From Bdellovibrionales bacterium (lineage in GTDB: Bacteria; Bdellovibrionota; UBA1018), in NCBI GenBank assembly GCA_016786465.1, contig JAEUWC010000021.1:77786-116425 (forward strand): a stretch of 38,640 bases of DNA, read 5' to 3'. The notes under the pieces were generated by a model, which was given only the letters and a program-made list of their open reading frames with translations, ran no database searches and was not told the DNA's origin. The position numbers and the translations under genes were made by a program. Every line of letters starts with the position of its first letter. The first letter of the stretch is position 1. Below, in pieces: positions 30,409-38,640 of this stretch.

Positions 30409-30846
30409 TCAGTTTTTGGACTGAGCAAGTAGCTTTTCCAAACGGCTGATCAACTGTTCAATTCGCTTTTCTTGGGTCTCAAGCTTGGTCAATTCACGTT
30501 CCATTTCACGCACGTCGGGGCTGATAAATGCCGCCACAATCAATCCCACGTAAGACCAAAGAAAAAGCGAACCAAAGAGCATCAGCAGAATCGAAATCAC
30601 CTTACCGACGGACGTCGTCGCGTGGATGTCTCCGAAGCCTACGGTCGTCACCGTTGAAATCGCCCAATACAGTGCATCAAAGTACGATTGAAGCCCGGGA
30701 TTCCCGTCTTCAAAATGAAAAAATAAACCCGCTAAACCCAAGATCCAGACATGGCCCCAAATCGTCAGAAAAACAAAAACAGGCTGACGAGCCAGATGGC
30801 CCAACCGAGACAGGTAGCGTCTAGGGTCTAACCGATCACGAATCAA
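30409..30846 (-). CDS. two-transmembrane potassium-channel-like protein
   Basis: A 145-residue protein with the minimal pore module of potassium channels. It has a first membrane helix ([24 protein letters not shown]), a pore helix with selectivity filter ([17 protein letters not shown], filter TVGFGD) and a second membrane helix ([26 protein letters not shown]). The C-terminal about 35 residues ([27 protein letters not shown]) form a coiled coil that probably holds the tetramer together. No ligand-binding (RCK) domain is present. The TTG start lies in the last codons of rpoD (TTGATTCGTGA, 11 bp overlap), which implies translational coupling to the operon. Inner membrane. Confidence 0.87.
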
Positions 30847-33016
30847 CGAAGGCCTTCAAAAGCTTCGCGCGCGAAGGATGGCGCAGCTTTCGAAGTGCTT
30901 TAGCTTCGATCTGACGAATCCGTTCACGAGTGACGAAGAAATCCTGACCCACTTCTTCCAAAGTGTGGTCCGACTTTTCCCCGATGCCAAAACGCATGCG
31001 AAGGACTTTTTCTTCGCGCGGAGTCAGCGTTGCCAGAACCTTACGGGTCTGTTCAGAAAGGTTGATGTTCATCACGGCTTCAGCCGGATTGATGATCTTC
31101 TTGTCTTCGATGAAATCGCCCAAGTATGAATCTTCTTCTTCACCAATTGGGGTTTCCAAAGAAATCGGTTCTTTTGCGATCTTCAGAACCTTGCGGACCT
31201 TATCGACCGGAAGTTCCATCTTTACAGCGATTTCTTCCGGGGTCGGTTCGCGACCTAGCTGCTGAATCAAAAGACGGCTGGTGCGGATCAATTTATTGAT
31301 CGTTTCGATCATATGCACCGGAATACGAATCGTGCGCGCCTGGTCGGCAATCGCACGGGTAATCGCTTGGCGAATCCACCACGTGGCGTAGGTCGAAAAT
31401 TTGTAACCACGGCGATATTCGAACTTATCGACGGCTTTCATCAAGCCGATGTTTCCTTCTTGGATCAGATCCAAGAACTGAAGTCCGCGGTTGGTGTACT
31501 TCTTCGCAATCGAAACCACCAAACGCAGGTTGGCTTCAACCAATTCCGACTTGGCTTGGTCGGCCTTGCGTTCGCCAATGGTCAGCGAATCATGAATGCG
31601 ACGCAGTTCTTCGACCGGAAGACCCGATTCTTCTTCCAAACGATCGATCTTTTTCTGAAGATCATCGTCCTGGGTCATCAGCTGCTGCATCTTCATTTCC
31701 GTGACGTCATATTCACGGTGAATCTGATTGCGCTTTTCTGGCTGCGATTTGTATTCGTCGGCGACCTTGCGGAAGTCTTCGACGGTCTTCGTGCCCATGA
31801 AGTCCAAAACTTTTTTGCGTTCGACCAAAAGATCTTGTCCGCGACCCCAGTAAGCTTTGATCTTCGCCGAAAGGTGGTTAATGGTCTTTCGGTTGAATGC
31901 AATGTTTTGGAACGCACTTTCAACCTGGCGTTCGCGGCGCTTGATTTCTTGCTGGATTCGTTCTTTTTCTTTGACCGGAATTTTTTTGGATTCAGGACCA
32001 ACCAACTTTTCGTCGGCTTTTTCCTGATAGCCCACCAAGGCCTTCACCTTGGAAATCGCAACCAAGACGCGTTCCAGGTAAACCTTTTCGTCGTCAGGCG
32101 AAATTTCTTCGTCAACGCCACGAATGACGTCTTTCACTTTGGTTTTGCCCGTTTCCATGCGTTCGCCCAGATCGACGATCGCGATGGTTCCCAATTTCGA
32201 AGCCAAAAGTGCGCGAAGGATTTCGATTTCGCCTTCTTCGATGCGCTTAGCGATTTCAACTTCGCCTTCGCGGGTCAGAAGCGAAACGCTTCCCATCTTT
32301 TTCAAATAAAGCTTAACAGGGTCAGCACCGCGCGCGTATTCGGCGCCTGCTGCTGCTTCTTCTTTTTCTTCGTCTTTATCAGGCGAAGCGACCAATGGAT
32401 TTTCTTCGCTGCCTTCTTCTTCTTCGCCATCGCGTGGACGCTTGGTGCTGTCCAAGACTTCGATTTCGGATTCCGAAAGAAGATTCAGAATTTCGTCGAT
32501 CGCTTGCGGGGTGATGATTTCAGGCGGAAGAAGTTCGTTCACTTCTTCGAAAGTCAAAAAGCCGCGCTGAAGACCCATGTCGATCAGCTTTTTGATTTCT
32601 TTGTTTTTAGCTAATGCCGATTCGGCGCCGGCCTGGGCCGTTGTCAAAGTTGTAGAAGCCGCGATGAACGCAGCAACCGGGGAGGGTCCCGATTCTTTTC
32701 CGGAAGTGACGACTGCGACGACTTCAGTTTCAGTCACTTCAATTTTTAATTTCGATTTCGATTCTAATTTTTTCTGTTCCGCTTTGGACAATGGCTTTGC
32801 CGAAGCAGCAGGCTTAGCCGCTTTTGCCGAGGCTGCTTTCGTCGCTGCAATCGGCTTCGCTTTCGCGGAAGACTTTACAACCGTGTTCACGGCACTTGCC
32901 AATGCGGCAGCCGCTTTCGACACGAGTCCCGTTGCTCCCTTCTGTTTTTGAACAGACAAAGGGGCCTTTTTCGCAGCCGCAGGGGCTGCTTTCGCAGGTT
33001 TTTTAGGCTTGGTCAT
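30836..33016 (-). CDS. rpoD: primary RNA polymerase sigma factor (sigma-70)
   Basis: A 726-residue housekeeping sigma factor. Region 1.1 is visible ([24 protein letters not shown]), then 1.2 ([21 protein letters not shown]), a long non-conserved region, regions 2.1-2.4 ([53 protein letters not shown]) that bind core enzyme and the -10 element, region 3 ([12 protein letters not shown]), and region 4 ([35 protein letters not shown]) that reads the -35 element. The first 85 or so residues are an unusual Lys/Ala/Pro-rich tail. It is followed in the sequence by an acidic run ([10 protein letters not shown]) near residue 200. The start overlaps dnaG by 14 bp. Core gene of the macromolecular-synthesis operon. 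Confidence 0.97.
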
Positions 33017-35042
33017 AGAAGGCTGTAAACTCCTTCAACTTGCGTTGCAGGTCAAGGTATTCTTTCTTCAGACGGGCTTCTAACCCTTCGTCTTTCTTGG
33101 CTTCTGCCTCGGCCAAAGCCACCCGAAGTGCTTGCGAAATTCGTTCCAACGCGCGCCTTCCACACACTCCCATCGCACTTCTAATTTCTGACTCGGCGAA
33201 GGGCAAAGTGGGTGCGACCAAAGCTTCAGTAATAGTTGAGCGAACTTGTGCGTCCAGATCGTCGCCCAAGTAGCTTTCCGGAGCCTGCTGAATGCGCTGA
33301 AAAAAAGTAGGATCCTCGAGCCCTGAAGCCTGAGACGACAAAGAACGAATGAAATCCCTGGCTGGAAAGTAGTCAAATAGGTCAGAAAATGTCAGCTCGG
33401 GGGGCAGTTTTCGGCGCCATTCCACCCATAGGTCTGAAACCCCCAAACCCTTAACCAGGGCCGAAAGAACGACTTTTTCACGATCAGACAGGCGGCTGCT
33501 TGCGGCCGGACGCGACCTGCCCTGGGCACGGATCTGGACCCTAGGCTTTGGCGCCTGGGTCGCCGGGTTGGAAGGGTTGCGCCCTTGACCCTGCGTGGGC
33601 GCTTGTGGGCCTGCCACAGACGGTGCCCCTCGGCGGTTGCCCCGGGCGACCGTAGCTTCGGCTTCACTGATGGCCCTTTGCAAAAGATCGCGGCTAATCT
33701 GAAGCCCCTTTTCAACGGTGTCGAACCGGATTTCACGACCGATCGGATCTGAAAAACGGGCCAGCGCCGCCGCAATGGTTTTCAATGCGGCCGCCTTGGC
33801 TTCAGGGGTCCGCGCGTCAATTGCGGTTCGGATCGTATCTTGGATCAGAGTGTCCAAGATCGGCTGCGCCTTGGCCAAAACCTGTTTCATTCTTTCAACG
33901 CCACCGGGAACCGGCTTGCCGGTTTCCTGGTCAAACAGGACTTCGTCCGGATCCAGCCCTTCGGGAATGGATGCTCCGTAAAGAACGATCCCCTTGGACA
34001 GTGCCAGTTCCATCGCGCGAACGGACGCATCTTGACCCGCGCGATCGCCATCCAATAGCAAAGTGACTTTGCTTCCAAATCTTCGAAACAGGGCCAAGTG
34101 ATCTTCGGTCATGGCGGTTCCGCAAATCGCGACCGCGTTCTGAATTCCCGCTGCATGAAGCGCCAAAACATCGAAGTATCCTTCGACCAGAATCACTTCG
34201 TCCGCTTCGCGAATGTGTTTTTGCGCCTGGAAAAGTCCGTAGGCAACCTTGCCCTTTTGGAAGACGAAAGAATCCGATGAATTCAGGTACTTAGGACCAT
34301 CATCCTTGGAATCACTTCCCGCGGATGGCAAGATCCTGCCCCCAAAACCTACGACTTTTCCCCGAAGGTCAAGGATCGGAAAAATCGCCCGATTTCGAAA
34401 AAGGTCAAAAGTGGAAGCCTGGGATCGGACAGCCGTATTCTTCGACGGCTTGATCAACCCCAGTTCAATCGCCAGTTCCAAGGGCGCTTTCTTTTCGGCC
34501 AAGAAAACTGAAAGCGCGTCCCACTGATTGGGGGCAGCGCCCAAATAAAACGACCGGATCAGATCTGAACCCACACCCCGCTTTTGGAAGTACTGAAGGA
34601 TCGGGGGTTGGTTTGAAAGTGCCGTGTGAAAAAACTGGGCTGCAAATCGATTCAATTTCCAAGCGGTCTGAAGTTTTTCCCGAGCAGCTGCCGATCGCTT
34701 CGCGATTTCCGGGTCGTCGGAATCGGCACCCCGCCAGTTCTTCGGCAGGGGAATCCTTGCACGCGAAGCCAATTCTTCGATCGTTTCCGGAAATGACAGG
34801 CCATGTAGTTCCATGACAAAACGAATCAGGTCGCCGCCTTTTTTACAGCCATAGCAATGATAAAGCTGCTTTTGTTCGCTGACGCTAAACGAAGGCGACC
34901 GTTCTGAATGGAAAGGACAAAGTCCGGTGTAATTGGCGCCGGACCTTTTCAAAACGACGTGTTCGCCCACCACTTCGACCAGGTTGACGGCGTCTTTCAG
35001 TTTTTGAAGGTAGTCCGGGGGTAACCGGTCATTCTTAGGCAT
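33003..35042 (-). CDS. dnaG: DNA primase
   Basis: A 679-residue bacterial primase, which makes the RNA primers for DNA replication. The N-terminal CHC2 zinc ribbon is visible (C42-x2-H45 in [11 protein letters not shown]63-x2-C66 in [11 protein letters not shown]). The catalytic core follows, and the Toprim domain contains [16 protein letters not shown] and [10 protein letters not shown] (about residues 275-345). A low-complexity Gly/Pro/Arg/Gln-rich linker (about 475-525) precedes the C-terminal helicase-interaction domain. It lies between yqeY-like (24 bp gap) and rpoD (14 bp overlap), as in the classical operon. Confidence 0.96.
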
Positions 35043-35066
35043 GGAAAAGCTCGGTGATGATCGGCC

Positions 35067-35513
35067 TTAACCCAGCTTTTCTTTAACGATCTGGCTGACC
35101 AGCTTGCCGTCGGCTTTTCCCGCGGTTTTCGGCATCAAAAGTTTCATCACAGCGCCCATGTCTTTCGGACCGGCGGCCTTGGCTTCGGAAATAGCCCACG
35201 CAACGACGTCCCGAATTTCGGCTTCCGACATTTGCTTGGGAAGGAAGGACTGAAGGAACTTCAGTTCGTTTTCTTCTTTCGCGACCAGATCTTCGCGGCC
35301 GCCTTGCTTGAACTGTTCGATCGAATCTTGGCGCTGCTTAACTGAAGACAGGATGATCTTGATGACGCCCGCGTCGTCTAGGTCGACTTTGTCATCGATT
35401 TCCTTTTTGCGAATCGCGGCGTGCAGATTTCTCACGTTTGCCAGCGTGTCTTTGTCGCCAGCCTTCATCGATTCTTTCATTTTTACGGACAAAGTTTCTT
35501 TGATCGTCGCCAT
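35067..35513 (-). CDS. GatB/YqeY domain protein
   Basis: A 148-residue YqeY-like protein of the GatB/YqeY family. Typical segments are LRNLHAAIRKKEID-like RNLHAAIRKKEID (about residues 28-40), a KQRQDSIEQFKQGGREDLVAKEENELKFLQSFLPKQMSE block (about 58-96) and MGAVMKLLMPKTAGKADGKLVSQIVKEKL at the end. The domain resembles the tRNA-binding tail of GatB; the cellular role of stand-alone YqeY is not settled. Placement between rpsU and dnaG is common outside the enterics. A GGAG ribosome-binding site lies nine bases upstream, directly after a repeat copy. Confidence 0.92.
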   Translation of the reverse strand: MATIKETLSVKMKESMKAGDKDTLANVRNLHAAIRKKEIDDKVDLDDAGVIKIILSSVKQRQDSIEQFKQGGREDLVAKEENELKFLQSFLPKQMSEAEIRDVVAWAISEAKAAGPKDMGAVMKLLMPKTAGKADGKLVSQIVKEKLG

Positions 35514-35524
35514 AAAGGATCTCC

Positions 35525-35545
35525 AATGGTGCCTGCTACTTTTGG
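35525..35545 (-). repeat. dispersed GGTGCC-type repeat, copy 5
   Basis: Reads AATGGTGCCTGCTACTTTTG on plus. With the next bases it forms a hairpin, CTGCTAC-TTTTGGC-GTAGCAG. It sits in the rpsU-yqeY spacer between the attenuator-type terminator and the yqeY ribosome-binding site. Confidence 0.6.
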
Positions 35546-35560
35546 CGTAGCAGCGTCATT

Positions 35561-35598
35561 AAAAAGCCCGGCCCCAGGATTTCCTGAAGGACCGGGCT
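35561..35598 (-). terminator. internal terminator/attenuator after rpsU
   Basis: On the minus strand AGCCCGGTCC pairs with GGGGCCGGGCT (about 10 bp, one G-T pair) around a short loop and is followed directly by TTTTT. It lies 18 bp after the rpsU stop and before yqeY. In E. coli a terminator at the corresponding place lets rpsU be expressed far above dnaG and rpoD; the same use is likely here. Confidence 0.88.
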
Positions 35599-35615
35599 AC
35601 AAATTTTAAGTTCGA

Positions 35616-35813
35616 TTAGCCGCGGCGGAAGCCGCCTTTTTTCGAACCGCGCTTGCGTGCGGCGGCGTCCTTCTTCTTCCGTTTCACGGAAGGTTTTTCG
35701 TAAGCTTCGCGTTTGCGAACTTCAGCGAGGATGCCGGCTTTTTCACAAGCTTTCTTGAACTTCTTGAGGGCTGCCTCGAACGAGTCGCCTTCACGTAGAT
35801 TGATACCTGGCAT
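35616..35813 (-). CDS. rpsU: 30S ribosomal protein S21
   Basis: A 65-residue basic protein matching bS21 along its length. It starts [42 protein letters not shown], the family signature, and ends in a Lys/Arg-rich tail ([20 protein letters not shown]). bS21 helps base-pair the 16S rRNA 3' end with messages at initiation. First gene of the macromolecular-synthesis operon here. A strong ribosome-binding site (GAGGTG) lies eleven bases before the ATG. Confidence 0.96.
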
Positions 35814-35932: not shown

Positions 35933-37780
35933 CTATAGCCGATTGTCGGGCCAAAGGGCAAGGACCATTCCCCCGCCGCCGGCGCCGGTCATCTTCACGG
36001 CCAGGGCCCCCTTTTGCTTCAAGCTTTCCATCATTTCGTATGCTTGGCTGGGAACCAAGCCCCAGTCCTGGAAACACCCTTGGGCGTCGTTCATCGCCTG
36101 AGCTAGATCGTTCAAATTTCCTGCGGCTAGAGCGGCCTGCGCCTTTTGGCTGGCCTGATCCATACGCAGATCGATTTCCTGGGCGCGCGCCGGGTCTTGC
36201 GTGCGAAGCCCCTGAACTTGGGCAATTGCTTCGCGTGTCGGAAGCCGCACCCGGGAATCGTGAACGCTGAATCGTGCGCCAAGGGAAGCTAACTTCGACG
36301 CCTTTCCATTCTGAAAGACAATCGGAACTTCGCCCGCAACCGTTGCGACATCTAGGCCACTGCTTTTTCCATGAAACTGGTCTTCAATCGACCTAGCCAA
36401 GTTCCATTCCGAAAAATCTTCCGTTAACCGGGCCGCACCCACGGCCACCAGGAAGCGAGCCAGAGCTACCGATAGTGCGGCGCTAGAACCCAAGCCCGAC
36501 CCGACTGGAATCGTGCTTTCGACGCGAAGTTTTCCCGAAGGAAGCTTTTCTTTCCATTGTGCCAAAACCGATTCATCCAGGTCTGGGCTTTGAAAACCGT
36601 TTTCGTTCTTAGGTTGAAACGTCATTCGAAGAAAATAGTCCGGGCACGGAATCGAAACAGCCCGACCGCCTCGAAGGACCGCATGTTCACCGGTCAAAAT
36701 GATCTTTCCGGGAACCTTGGAATGGAAACTGAACGCCGCACCTTGAATTCCCCGGCCTGCGACATCCGAAAGAATGCGTACTTCGGGAAATCGTCGTTCC
36801 AACTGATGACGGACGGCTTCGGCGTAATCCGCTACGACCAAGACGTGGACGTTTGGGCCTGCATCCAAGGTACAAAACGCAAATTCAGCTTCGGGTAGCG
36901 TTGAAACAAATTCTTGAATCAAGCGACTGGTGGCGTTTGCATAAGAAAAACCCGGAACTGAAGTTTCAAAAAGCAGGTGCATTTCGTCTGAATCGGCCCG
37001 GGCTATTTTGGCTAATTCAGAAAAGCCTTCGACACCACCCTTTGAAATCGCCGCCTTTGCTTTCTCAAAACGCTGGGTCGCGTTCTTCACGCGTGCAGAC
37101 CACAACGGTGACGACTTCACGCGCGAATGGGCTTGGCTGGACGAAATTTTCTTTTGCGTTTCTTCAACCACACAAACTAGATCAACCAATTTCGGCATTC
37201 GCGATTCAAGCAAAGTCACGCCGCTTTCGGTCCAACCCACGAATGGCCCGAAGAAACTTCGGCACGAACTTCCCGACCCTTGGCGCGAAAGATCGGTCAA
37301 AAAATTCCAAGTCGCGCGATCTGAAGCTTCAGTGGCCAAAATCTTTTCAAGCGCCGCACCCGGGTCCTTTGCGCAGGCCACGACCGCACCCAAAGTAGCG
37401 GCTGCAAAGCTGGAAGCGCTGGATGCGATTCCGGCACCTGCAGGAAACGAATTGGACGTGGTGATCTTCCAGCCGCGTGATGGGTCGCTGACTGGAATTC
37501 CAAGTCGATTCAGATATGCGGGCGCCTGCGCCTGAACGAATCGGACGTGGCCCAACATTCTTTCGACCGATTTTTCATCCAACCCTAAAAGTTTTGGATC
37601 TTCCGCAACCAGTTCCAGGCCCGACGGAATTTCTTCCCAAGTTTGAAAAGTCGAAAGCGAAGAAAGGGTCATCGAAAGGCTTGGATTTTCGGCCACGTTC
37701 TTTTGACCTGGGACTTCCTTTTTCCCCATGTATTTCACGCAAGCGATATTCGACGGCGCCTGGATCCAAAACTTAAGCAT
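35933..37780 (-). CDS. fused diphosphomevalonate decarboxylase - mevalonate kinase
   Basis: A 615-residue protein with two GHMP-fold enzymes in one frame. Residues 1 to about 350 match mevalonate-diphosphate decarboxylase: APSNIACVKYMGK, NPSLSMTL, SNSFPAGAGIASSASSFAA (about 109-127), DLSRQGSGSSCRS, and the catalytic aspartate in CTLDAGPNVHVL (Asp306). Residues from about 353 match mevalonate kinase: KVPGKIILTGEHAVLRGG, TIPVGSGLGSSAALSVALAR (ATP loop, about 423-442), HGKSSGLDVATVAGE and KMTGAGGGGM. It would therefore carry out the first and last ATP-dependent steps from mevalonate to isopentenyl diphosphate. ATG 37780 overlaps the upstream kinase gene by 8 bp (ATGCTTAA); the frame is open to 37858 but that would overlap more. 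Confidence 0.88.
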   Translation of the reverse strand: MLKFWIQAPSNIACVKYMGKKEVPGQKNVAENPSLSMTLSSLSTFQTWEEIPSGLELVAEDPKLLGLDEKSVERMLGHVRFVQAQAPAYLNRLGIPVSDPSRGWKITTSNSFPAGAGIASSASSFAAATLGAVVACAKDPGAALEKILATEASDRATWNFLTDLSRQGSGSSCRSFFGPFVGWTESGVTLLESRMPKLVDLVCVVEETQKKISSSQAHSRVKSSPLWSARVKNATQRFEKAKAAISKGGVEGFSELAKIARADSDEMHLLFETSVPGFSYANATSRLIQEFVSTLPEAEFAFCTLDAGPNVHVLVVADYAEAVRHQLERRFPEVRILSDVAGRGIQGAAFSFHSKVPGKIILTGEHAVLRGGRAVSIPCPDYFLRMTFQPKNENGFQSPDLDESVLAQWKEKLPSGKLRVESTIPVGSGLGSSAALSVALARFLVAVGAARLTEDFSEWNLARSIEDQFHGKSSGLDVATVAGEVPIVFQNGKASKLASLGARFSVHDSRVRLPTREAIAQVQGLRTQDPARAQEIDLRMDQASQKAQAALAAGNLNDLAQAMNDAQGCFQDWGLVPSQAYEMMESLKQKGALAVKMTGAGGGGMVLALWPDNRL

Positions 37781-38600
37781 GAATCCCCATTTCTGACGGG
37801 ATTCCATCTGAAACCAGTTCCAATCCGCGTGCCCGAGCCGCCTGAATGACTGCCGCACGAACTTCGGGATCCGCGGTGTTCATCAAGACCAAAAGTGCAT
37901 CCGACTGATTCGCGCCGCAGCCCTTGACGGCTAACACGCCTGAAAGCCTTGAAAGCGCATCGCGGTCTTGGGTGGTGCGCGGGTCTTCTAGATCCAGCGA
38001 CTGAAGCGTCTTGGCCGTTCGGGTCATCGCACGTGCAACGCGTTCTTCCGATCCTTCTTGAACGCCTAAAATTCCTTCGCGGCTGGCATCGACCAGGGCT
38101 GACAGGACTGATGCCGGGATTTCTTTCGCGTTTTTCAAGTGGGAATGGGTCGCGGTTTTTCGGTCGGGGTCGCGCGCGGTGGCTGAAAAAACCAAGAATC
38201 GGTTCCAGTCAAAAAGCGCGTAAACTTCGGTTGCTGCCACGGCTTCAGGATCAAACCAAGTCAGCCCGCCACGCCATTGTGCGACGATATCTGCCCCGCT
38301 GGGTGAACGAAACGCTTGGGGTCCGGCAGTCAGTTCGCGGTAAAGGGAATATGCTTTCTTCCAGTTTAAAAGTTCATCCTGACCTTCAAAAATCCAGCGG
38401 TACAAAAGCAAAAATTCAGCCGACGACCTTCCGAAGCCCCCCTCGGTTTCGTCTTGCAGATCAAAATGAAACCCCGAAAGTCGTTCATGACCGACGCCGC
38501 CGACAAACTGGATCAAGCGGCCCGCGGGACTAGCGGGGTGAAAAAGATCTAGCCCCGTGCTTCCGTCGCGCGAAACGGTCAACTGGAAACGCGGGCCCAC
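37773..38600 (-). CDS. GHMP kinase, probable phosphomevalonate kinase, 5' end missing
   Basis: The 3' 276 codons of a GHMP-superfamily gene. The ATP-loop region reads GGFGRSSAEFLLLYRW, a variant of the usual GLGSSAA motif; SPSGADIVAQWRGGLTWFDPE matches the substrate-side motif of phosphomevalonate kinases; VKGCGANQSDALLVLM stands in for the third (glycine-rich) motif. Together with the downstream decarboxylase-kinase fusion it would supply the missing middle step, mevalonate phosphate to diphosphate. It is cut by the contig end. The five codons beyond 38600 (MLFRS) are encoded by sequencing adapter and must not be included. Confidence 0.75.
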   Translation of the reverse strand: MGPRFQLTVSRDGSTGLDLFHPASPAGRLIQFVGGVGHERLSGFHFDLQDETEGGFGRSSAEFLLLYRWIFEGQDELLNWKKAYSLYRELTAGPQAFRSPSGADIVAQWRGGLTWFDPEAVAATEVYALFDWNRFLVFSATARDPDRKTATHSHLKNAKEIPASVLSALVDASREGILGVQEGSEERVARAMTRTAKTLQSLDLEDPRTTQDRDALSRLSGVLAVKGCGANQSDALLVLMNTADPEVRAAVIQAARARGLELVSDGIPSEMGIHA

Positions 38601-38640
38601 AGATCGGAAGAGCACACGTCTGAACTCCAGTCACGTGTTC
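38601..38640. other. Illumina TruSeq adapter contamination at contig end
   Basis: From 38601 the sequence is AGATCGGAAGAGCACACGTC followed by TGAACTCCAGTCAC (to 38634), the standard TruSeq index-read adapter, and then six bases (GTGTTC) at the place where the sample index begins. It is not genomic DNA. Read backwards it produces the well-known artefact peptide start MLFRS. Confidence 0.98.

Follow-up and report, generated by a model that had tools for sequence, protein, structure and literature searches.

A probable lineage-specific fusion of the diphosphomevalonate decarboxylase and mevalonate kinase genes in a member of the Bdellovibrionota

Gene organization at the locus

The window analysed here, a stretch of 38,640 nucleotides from a Bdellovibrionales bacterium, extends to the end of contig C5. 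Close to this end lies a gene in which the coding sequences for diphosphomevalonate decarboxylase (MVD) and mevalonate kinase (MVK) are joined (Table 1). Its reading frame is unbroken from the ATG to the TAG across all 615 residues, as shown by translation of the minus strand of the interval, and the plus strand at the same place is full of stops. An earlier note on this DNA had described a single frame that encodes two complete mevalonate-pathway enzymes of the GHMP type, MVD followed by MVK. Translation, Pfam and NCBIfam agree with this description; its coordinates were correct, and the strand is the minus strand.

Table 1. Features at the mevalonate locus, in window coordinates.
Feature	Position	Strand	Basis or remark
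Fused MVD-MVK gene, 615 aa	35933..37780	-	ATG 37780-37778, stop TAG 35935-35933; translation, Pfam/NCBIfam, AlphaFold
MVD half, residues 1-348	36737..37780	-	MVD-like_N, MDD_C; match to Legionella 3lto; invariant columns
Linker and junction, residues 339-351, DVAGRGIQGAAFS	36728..36766	-	Stop and start codon at the same place in relatives; low pLDDT
MVK half, residues 350-615	35936..36733	-	TIGR00549 above cut-off; 2x7i, 2oi2; invariant columns
3' part of upstream GHMP kinase gene, presumed phosphomevalonate kinase (PMK)	37773..38600	-	42% to G019 orthologue
Illumina TruSeq adapter (34 b) and 6 b of index	38601..38640	-	Contig end; not genomic

In the N-terminal half, Pfam recognized MVD-like_N (residues 8-185, 9e-26, 90.8 bits) and MDD_C (residues 201-335, 1.5e-16, 61.2 bits), both above the gathering cut-off, and in the C-terminal part GHMP_kinases_N (1.1e-18) and GHMP_kinases_C (2.8e-9). 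The NCBIfam model for mevalonate kinase, TIGR00549, matched residues 357-609 with 176.5 bits and thus passed its cut-off of 163.05. The model for diphosphomevalonate decarboxylase, TIGR01240, clearly matched residues 6-331, but its score of 136.3 bits, which was obtained for the fused protein alone, is below the equivalog cut-off of 171.35, which is an annotation threshold and not a biochemical definition. Immediately 5' of the MVK half, an in-frame ATG, GTG or TTG is absent; the nearest such codon is a TTG approximately 24 codons upstream.

The upstream GHMP kinase gene and the MVD gene share 8 bp at the stop of the former and the start of the latter. At the contig end, the GHMP kinase gene lacks its 5' part, and its start, MFRYSVAGKVFILGEYSVI, was found on contig C13, which carries the genes for type 2 IPP isomerase and HMG-CoA reductase, followed by 19 codons from the beginning of the GHMP kinase gene. 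Across the two contigs, the operon reads idi2-hmgr-GHMP kinase-[MVD-MVK]. No further exact copy of the terminal adapter of contig C5 occurs in the genome. The apparent GTG start (38615) of the upstream open reading frame falls inside this adapter. On the 3' side of the mevalonate operon and on the same strand, rpsU (35616-35813), yqeY, dnaG and rpoD constitute a macromolecular synthesis operon (30836-35813, minus strand), the rpsU-yqeY-dnaG part of which is kept in the neighborhood in at least 11 relatives. Directly after rpoD, a small protein with the TVGFGD filter motif of potassium channels is encoded (30409-30846, minus strand).

The MVK half of the fused gene is the only MVK in the genome. 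DXR was not found in the genome, and the search for DXS yielded only sub-cut-off, transketolase-like matches; the genome is without the MEP pathway. With a single MVK, no DXR and no better candidate for DXS, isoprenoid supply should depend on the fused gene, which should therefore be essential.

Catalytic residues and predicted structure

The catalytic positions of MVD, i.e., K16, S120/S121, S169, S171, R174 and D306, and those of MVK, i.e., K359, S433, E466 and D477, are all present in the fused protein and are invariant in the aligned relatives, in agreement with the earlier statement that both active-site motif sets are intact. We take K16, S169/S171, R174 and D306 to correspond to K18, S153/S155, R158 and D302 of yeast MVD, and K359, S433, E466 and D477 to K13, S146, E193 and D204 of rat MVK. 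In a leave-one-out alignment test, the MVD half kept 47 of the 49 columns that are invariant in all 28 other sequences, and the MVK half kept all 35; this retention is within the range of the unfused members. Both halves are very probably functional.

AlphaFold predicts two confident GHMP folds (mean pLDDT 88, pTM 0.62) with a disordered nine-residue link between them (residues 340-348, pLDDT below 50). The fused protein is thus modelled as two folded units on a flexible tether, and the prediction does not fix their relative orientation. The nearest solved structure is, for the MVD half, Legionella MVD (3lto, E = 2e-33) and, for the MVK half, those of bacterial MVKs including 2x7i and 2oi2. 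Among the matches listed, no fused MVD-MVK chain was found in the PDB, either by sequence or by fold.

The middle kinase of the operon

The earlier note had located a phosphomevalonate kinase just upstream of the fused gene. The gene exists, but it is incomplete in the window, it is missed by the models for PMK, and its identity is inferred. In searches with the curated PMK models of Pfam and NCBIfam, none convincingly matched the upstream kinase or any of 22 orthologues (best TIGR01219, E = 0.024). A profile of the orthologues matched the MVK structure 2hfs (2e-11) and Listeria Lin0012 (3k17, 8e-9), the latter of which is presumably a phosphomevalonate kinase. No second PMK was found in the genome with TIGR01220. 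Since the other GHMP genes found in the genome, which were considered for this function, look like those for a homoserine kinase and a sugar kinase from their sequence and gene context, and since no isopentenyl phosphate kinase was found in the genome above the cut-off, PMK is the best assignment for the middle kinase, albeit by elimination and not by recognition. Together with its orthologues, the protein appears to constitute a conserved, diverged GHMP family in the mevalonate operons of the Bdellovibrionota and is a candidate PMK family.

Separate genes in the relatives

The separate MVD and MVK of the Bdellovibrionota and Legionella, e.g., L. pneumophila MVD (3lto), belong to the same families as the two halves of the fused protein and are encoded in the same tandem order. 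The fused protein shows roughly 35-47% identity to relatives of the class and 31-40% to those of Legionella. Eighty named loci from both groups were examined, and in all 77 that contain both genes, MVD and MVK are adjacent, in the same order, and separate. Thus, whereas the relatives have two genes with overlapping stop and start codons, there is one gene here. The same operon order without the fusion was found in nearly all Bdellovibrionota loci with long enough flanks, and throughout the class the three GHMP genes lie side by side. Also in Legionella loci, e.g., L057, L061 and L072, the MVD-MVK tandem is kept; relatives of HMGR, IDI2 or the middle kinase were not detected there within 4 kb.

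Among 369 genomes scanned across the phylum, a single uninterrupted MVD-MVK case was found, i.e., the gene described here, and only unfused versions elsewhere; nor was the fused architecture found in relatives in the scans of the family, the order and the class or in the 80 named loci. The claim that the fusion is unusual, single-domain proteins being the rule, is therefore borne out among the relatives and phylum genomes searched.

In the relatives, MVK typically starts between -14 and +5 bp relative to the MVD stop and in most cases in another frame; the longest overlap is 29 bp. In the alignment, the junction of the fused protein, GRG-IQGAA-F-SFHSKVPGK, corresponds to an MVD tail directly joined to the start region of MVK from which the start codon is gone (compare M-SFHTESFGK in L035 and MWRSFHSRVPGK in L039). 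In four loci from four genera of the Bdellovibrionota (L035, L036, L037 and L038), MVD and MVK share a frame, with a TAA between them. These were considered as fusions and rejected, since the TAA between the domains makes them two genes; loss of this single codon would fuse MVD with MVK.

Origin of the fusion

We consider it likely that the gene arose by a genuine fusion, specific to this lineage, of the two genes at the 3' end of the conserved operon idi2-hmgr-GHMP kinase-MVD-MVK, since MVD and MVK are adjacent in the same order but separate in the relatives. The earlier note had regarded a stop codon between the domains in related genomes as evidence against the fusion. Such a stop is indeed present, as the relatives have two genes, yet it points to a fusion of recent date and not to an artefact.

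The first alternative to be weighed is an assembly or sequencing error, i.e., a base missing at the junction, which would hide two separate overlapping genes. The uniqueness of the fused case among the relatives is compatible with such an error, as are the uncleaned adapter at the end of the same contig, about 1.9 kb from the junction, and an out-of-frame GTG (GGTGCGG) near the junction, which could serve as the MVK start if one base had been lost. However, all single-base changes in the stretch from the last MVD motif to the PGK motif of MVK were evaluated, and a separable pair with an overlap like that in the relatives resulted from none of the substitutions, from none of the deletions and from just 2 of 163 distinct insertions; among the insertions listed, most would create an overlap of 56 or 80 bp, as compared to the maximum of 29 bp in the relatives. 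Furthermore, the junction is without a homopolymer, and after the simplest error in an ATGA overlap, an in-frame start codon would still be there, which is not the case. As almost no single edit restores a gene pair like that in the relatives, an error is rather unlikely.

The route to a genuine fusion may have been short. In the ancestral operon, idi2-hmgr-GHMP kinase(PMK)-MVD-MVK, the MVD and MVK genes would have overlapped by a few bases and were probably translationally coupled. A small insertion or deletion could then have removed the MVD stop and the MVK start and brought both genes into one frame, with the flexible linker derived from the old MVD tail; the fusion is most simply explained by such an indel in genes that overlap. 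The earlier note had found the joining of non-consecutive steps odd, with the last enzyme of the pathway in front of the first. The order poses no puzzle, since MVD and MVK are already adjacent in that order in the conserved operon, which the fusion merely follows.

Activity and possible advantage of the fused protein

Most likely, the C-terminal half would convert mevalonate to mevalonate-5-phosphate and the N-terminal half mevalonate-5-diphosphate to IPP. The middle kinase would act in trans, receiving mevalonate-5-phosphate and passing on mevalonate-5-diphosphate by diffusion. The protein would thus most likely function as two independent enzymes on one chain, without channelling, and the benefit of the fusion, if any, may be a fixed 1:1 expression. 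Mevalonate diphosphate is an inhibitor of class II MVK (PMC13001223), and a possible regulatory bonus is that MVD would consume this feedback inhibitor beside the MVK site. That the fusion alters the control of the pathway, either by tethering MVK to the destroyer of its feedback inhibitor or by organizing an MVK-PMK-MVD assembly, is speculation and must be considered unlikely.

A related possibility, compatible with a real fusion and going back to the complex suggested in the earlier note, is that the protein serves as a scaffold on which the middle GHMP kinase assembles into a complex of three enzymes and intermediates are channelled. It would suit the contiguity of the three GHMP genes in the class, and early ultracentrifugation suggested a complex of IspDF and IspE in the analogous pathway (cited in PMC5821942). 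However, later work on IspDF and IspE revealed neither channelling nor rate enhancement (Lherbet 2006, cited in PMC5821942), and IspD, IspE and IspF of B. subtilis or E. coli were not observed to form a complex (PMC5821942). Since the sequence also lacks any sign of interaction and the relatives manage with unfused enzymes, a scaffold seems quite improbable.

Very improbable is an alternative pathway with an isopentenyl phosphate kinase, in which the decarboxylase half acts on mevalonate-5-phosphate and the fused steps are consecutive. H218 is at the position of His194 in the mevalonate-5-phosphate decarboxylase of Anaerolinea, and the failure of the PMK models to match the middle kinase would fit as well; against this, Asn20 of the Anaerolinea enzyme is K20 here, as in the diphosphate enzymes, and an MVK/PMK-like GHMP kinase is encoded in the operon. 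The substrate determinants are thus mixed, with K20 diphosphate-like and H218 monophosphate-like. The absence of an isopentenyl phosphate kinase above the cut-off counts against consecutive steps and favors the diphosphate as the substrate. The best match to such a kinase in the genome was rejected, as it is N-acetylglutamate kinase.

Relation to known fusions and significance

Fusion of pathway genes is itself known. In the bacterial mevalonate pathway, mvaE of enterococci is a fusion of acetoacetyl-CoA thiolase and HMG-CoA reductase that joins non-consecutive steps; in contrast to the MVD-MVK fusion, it joins enzymes of the upper pathway and not GHMP proteins. A closer likeness is found in IspDF, where the intervening kinase, IspE, is a GHMP kinase. 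IspDF also joins non-consecutive steps, yet is common in bacteria (PMC13001223); as here, two non-consecutive enzymes of isoprenoid-precursor synthesis are fused, with a separate kinase between them (PMC13001223, PMC5821942). Whereas IspDF belongs to the MEP pathway, consists of other enzymes, is widespread and has measured activities, the MVD-MVK fusion was seen in only one genome and its activities are inferred. In architecture, the MVD-MVK fusion fits the IspDF type by analogy and not by homology, with two presumed activities and a putative PMK as the intermediate kinase.

An MVD-MVK fusion was not found in the literature searched, in which it is thus unreported, and no second case occurs in the genomes searched. 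Isoprenoid engineering could use the fused gene as a compact natural part. It also offers a natural comparison of fused and split enzymes with respect to channelling, stoichiometry and relief of feedback inhibition, for which the unfused relatives are the controls. In the biology of isoprenoid synthesis, it may represent the mevalonate-pathway counterpart of IspDF, i.e., an independent fusion around a GHMP kinase step.
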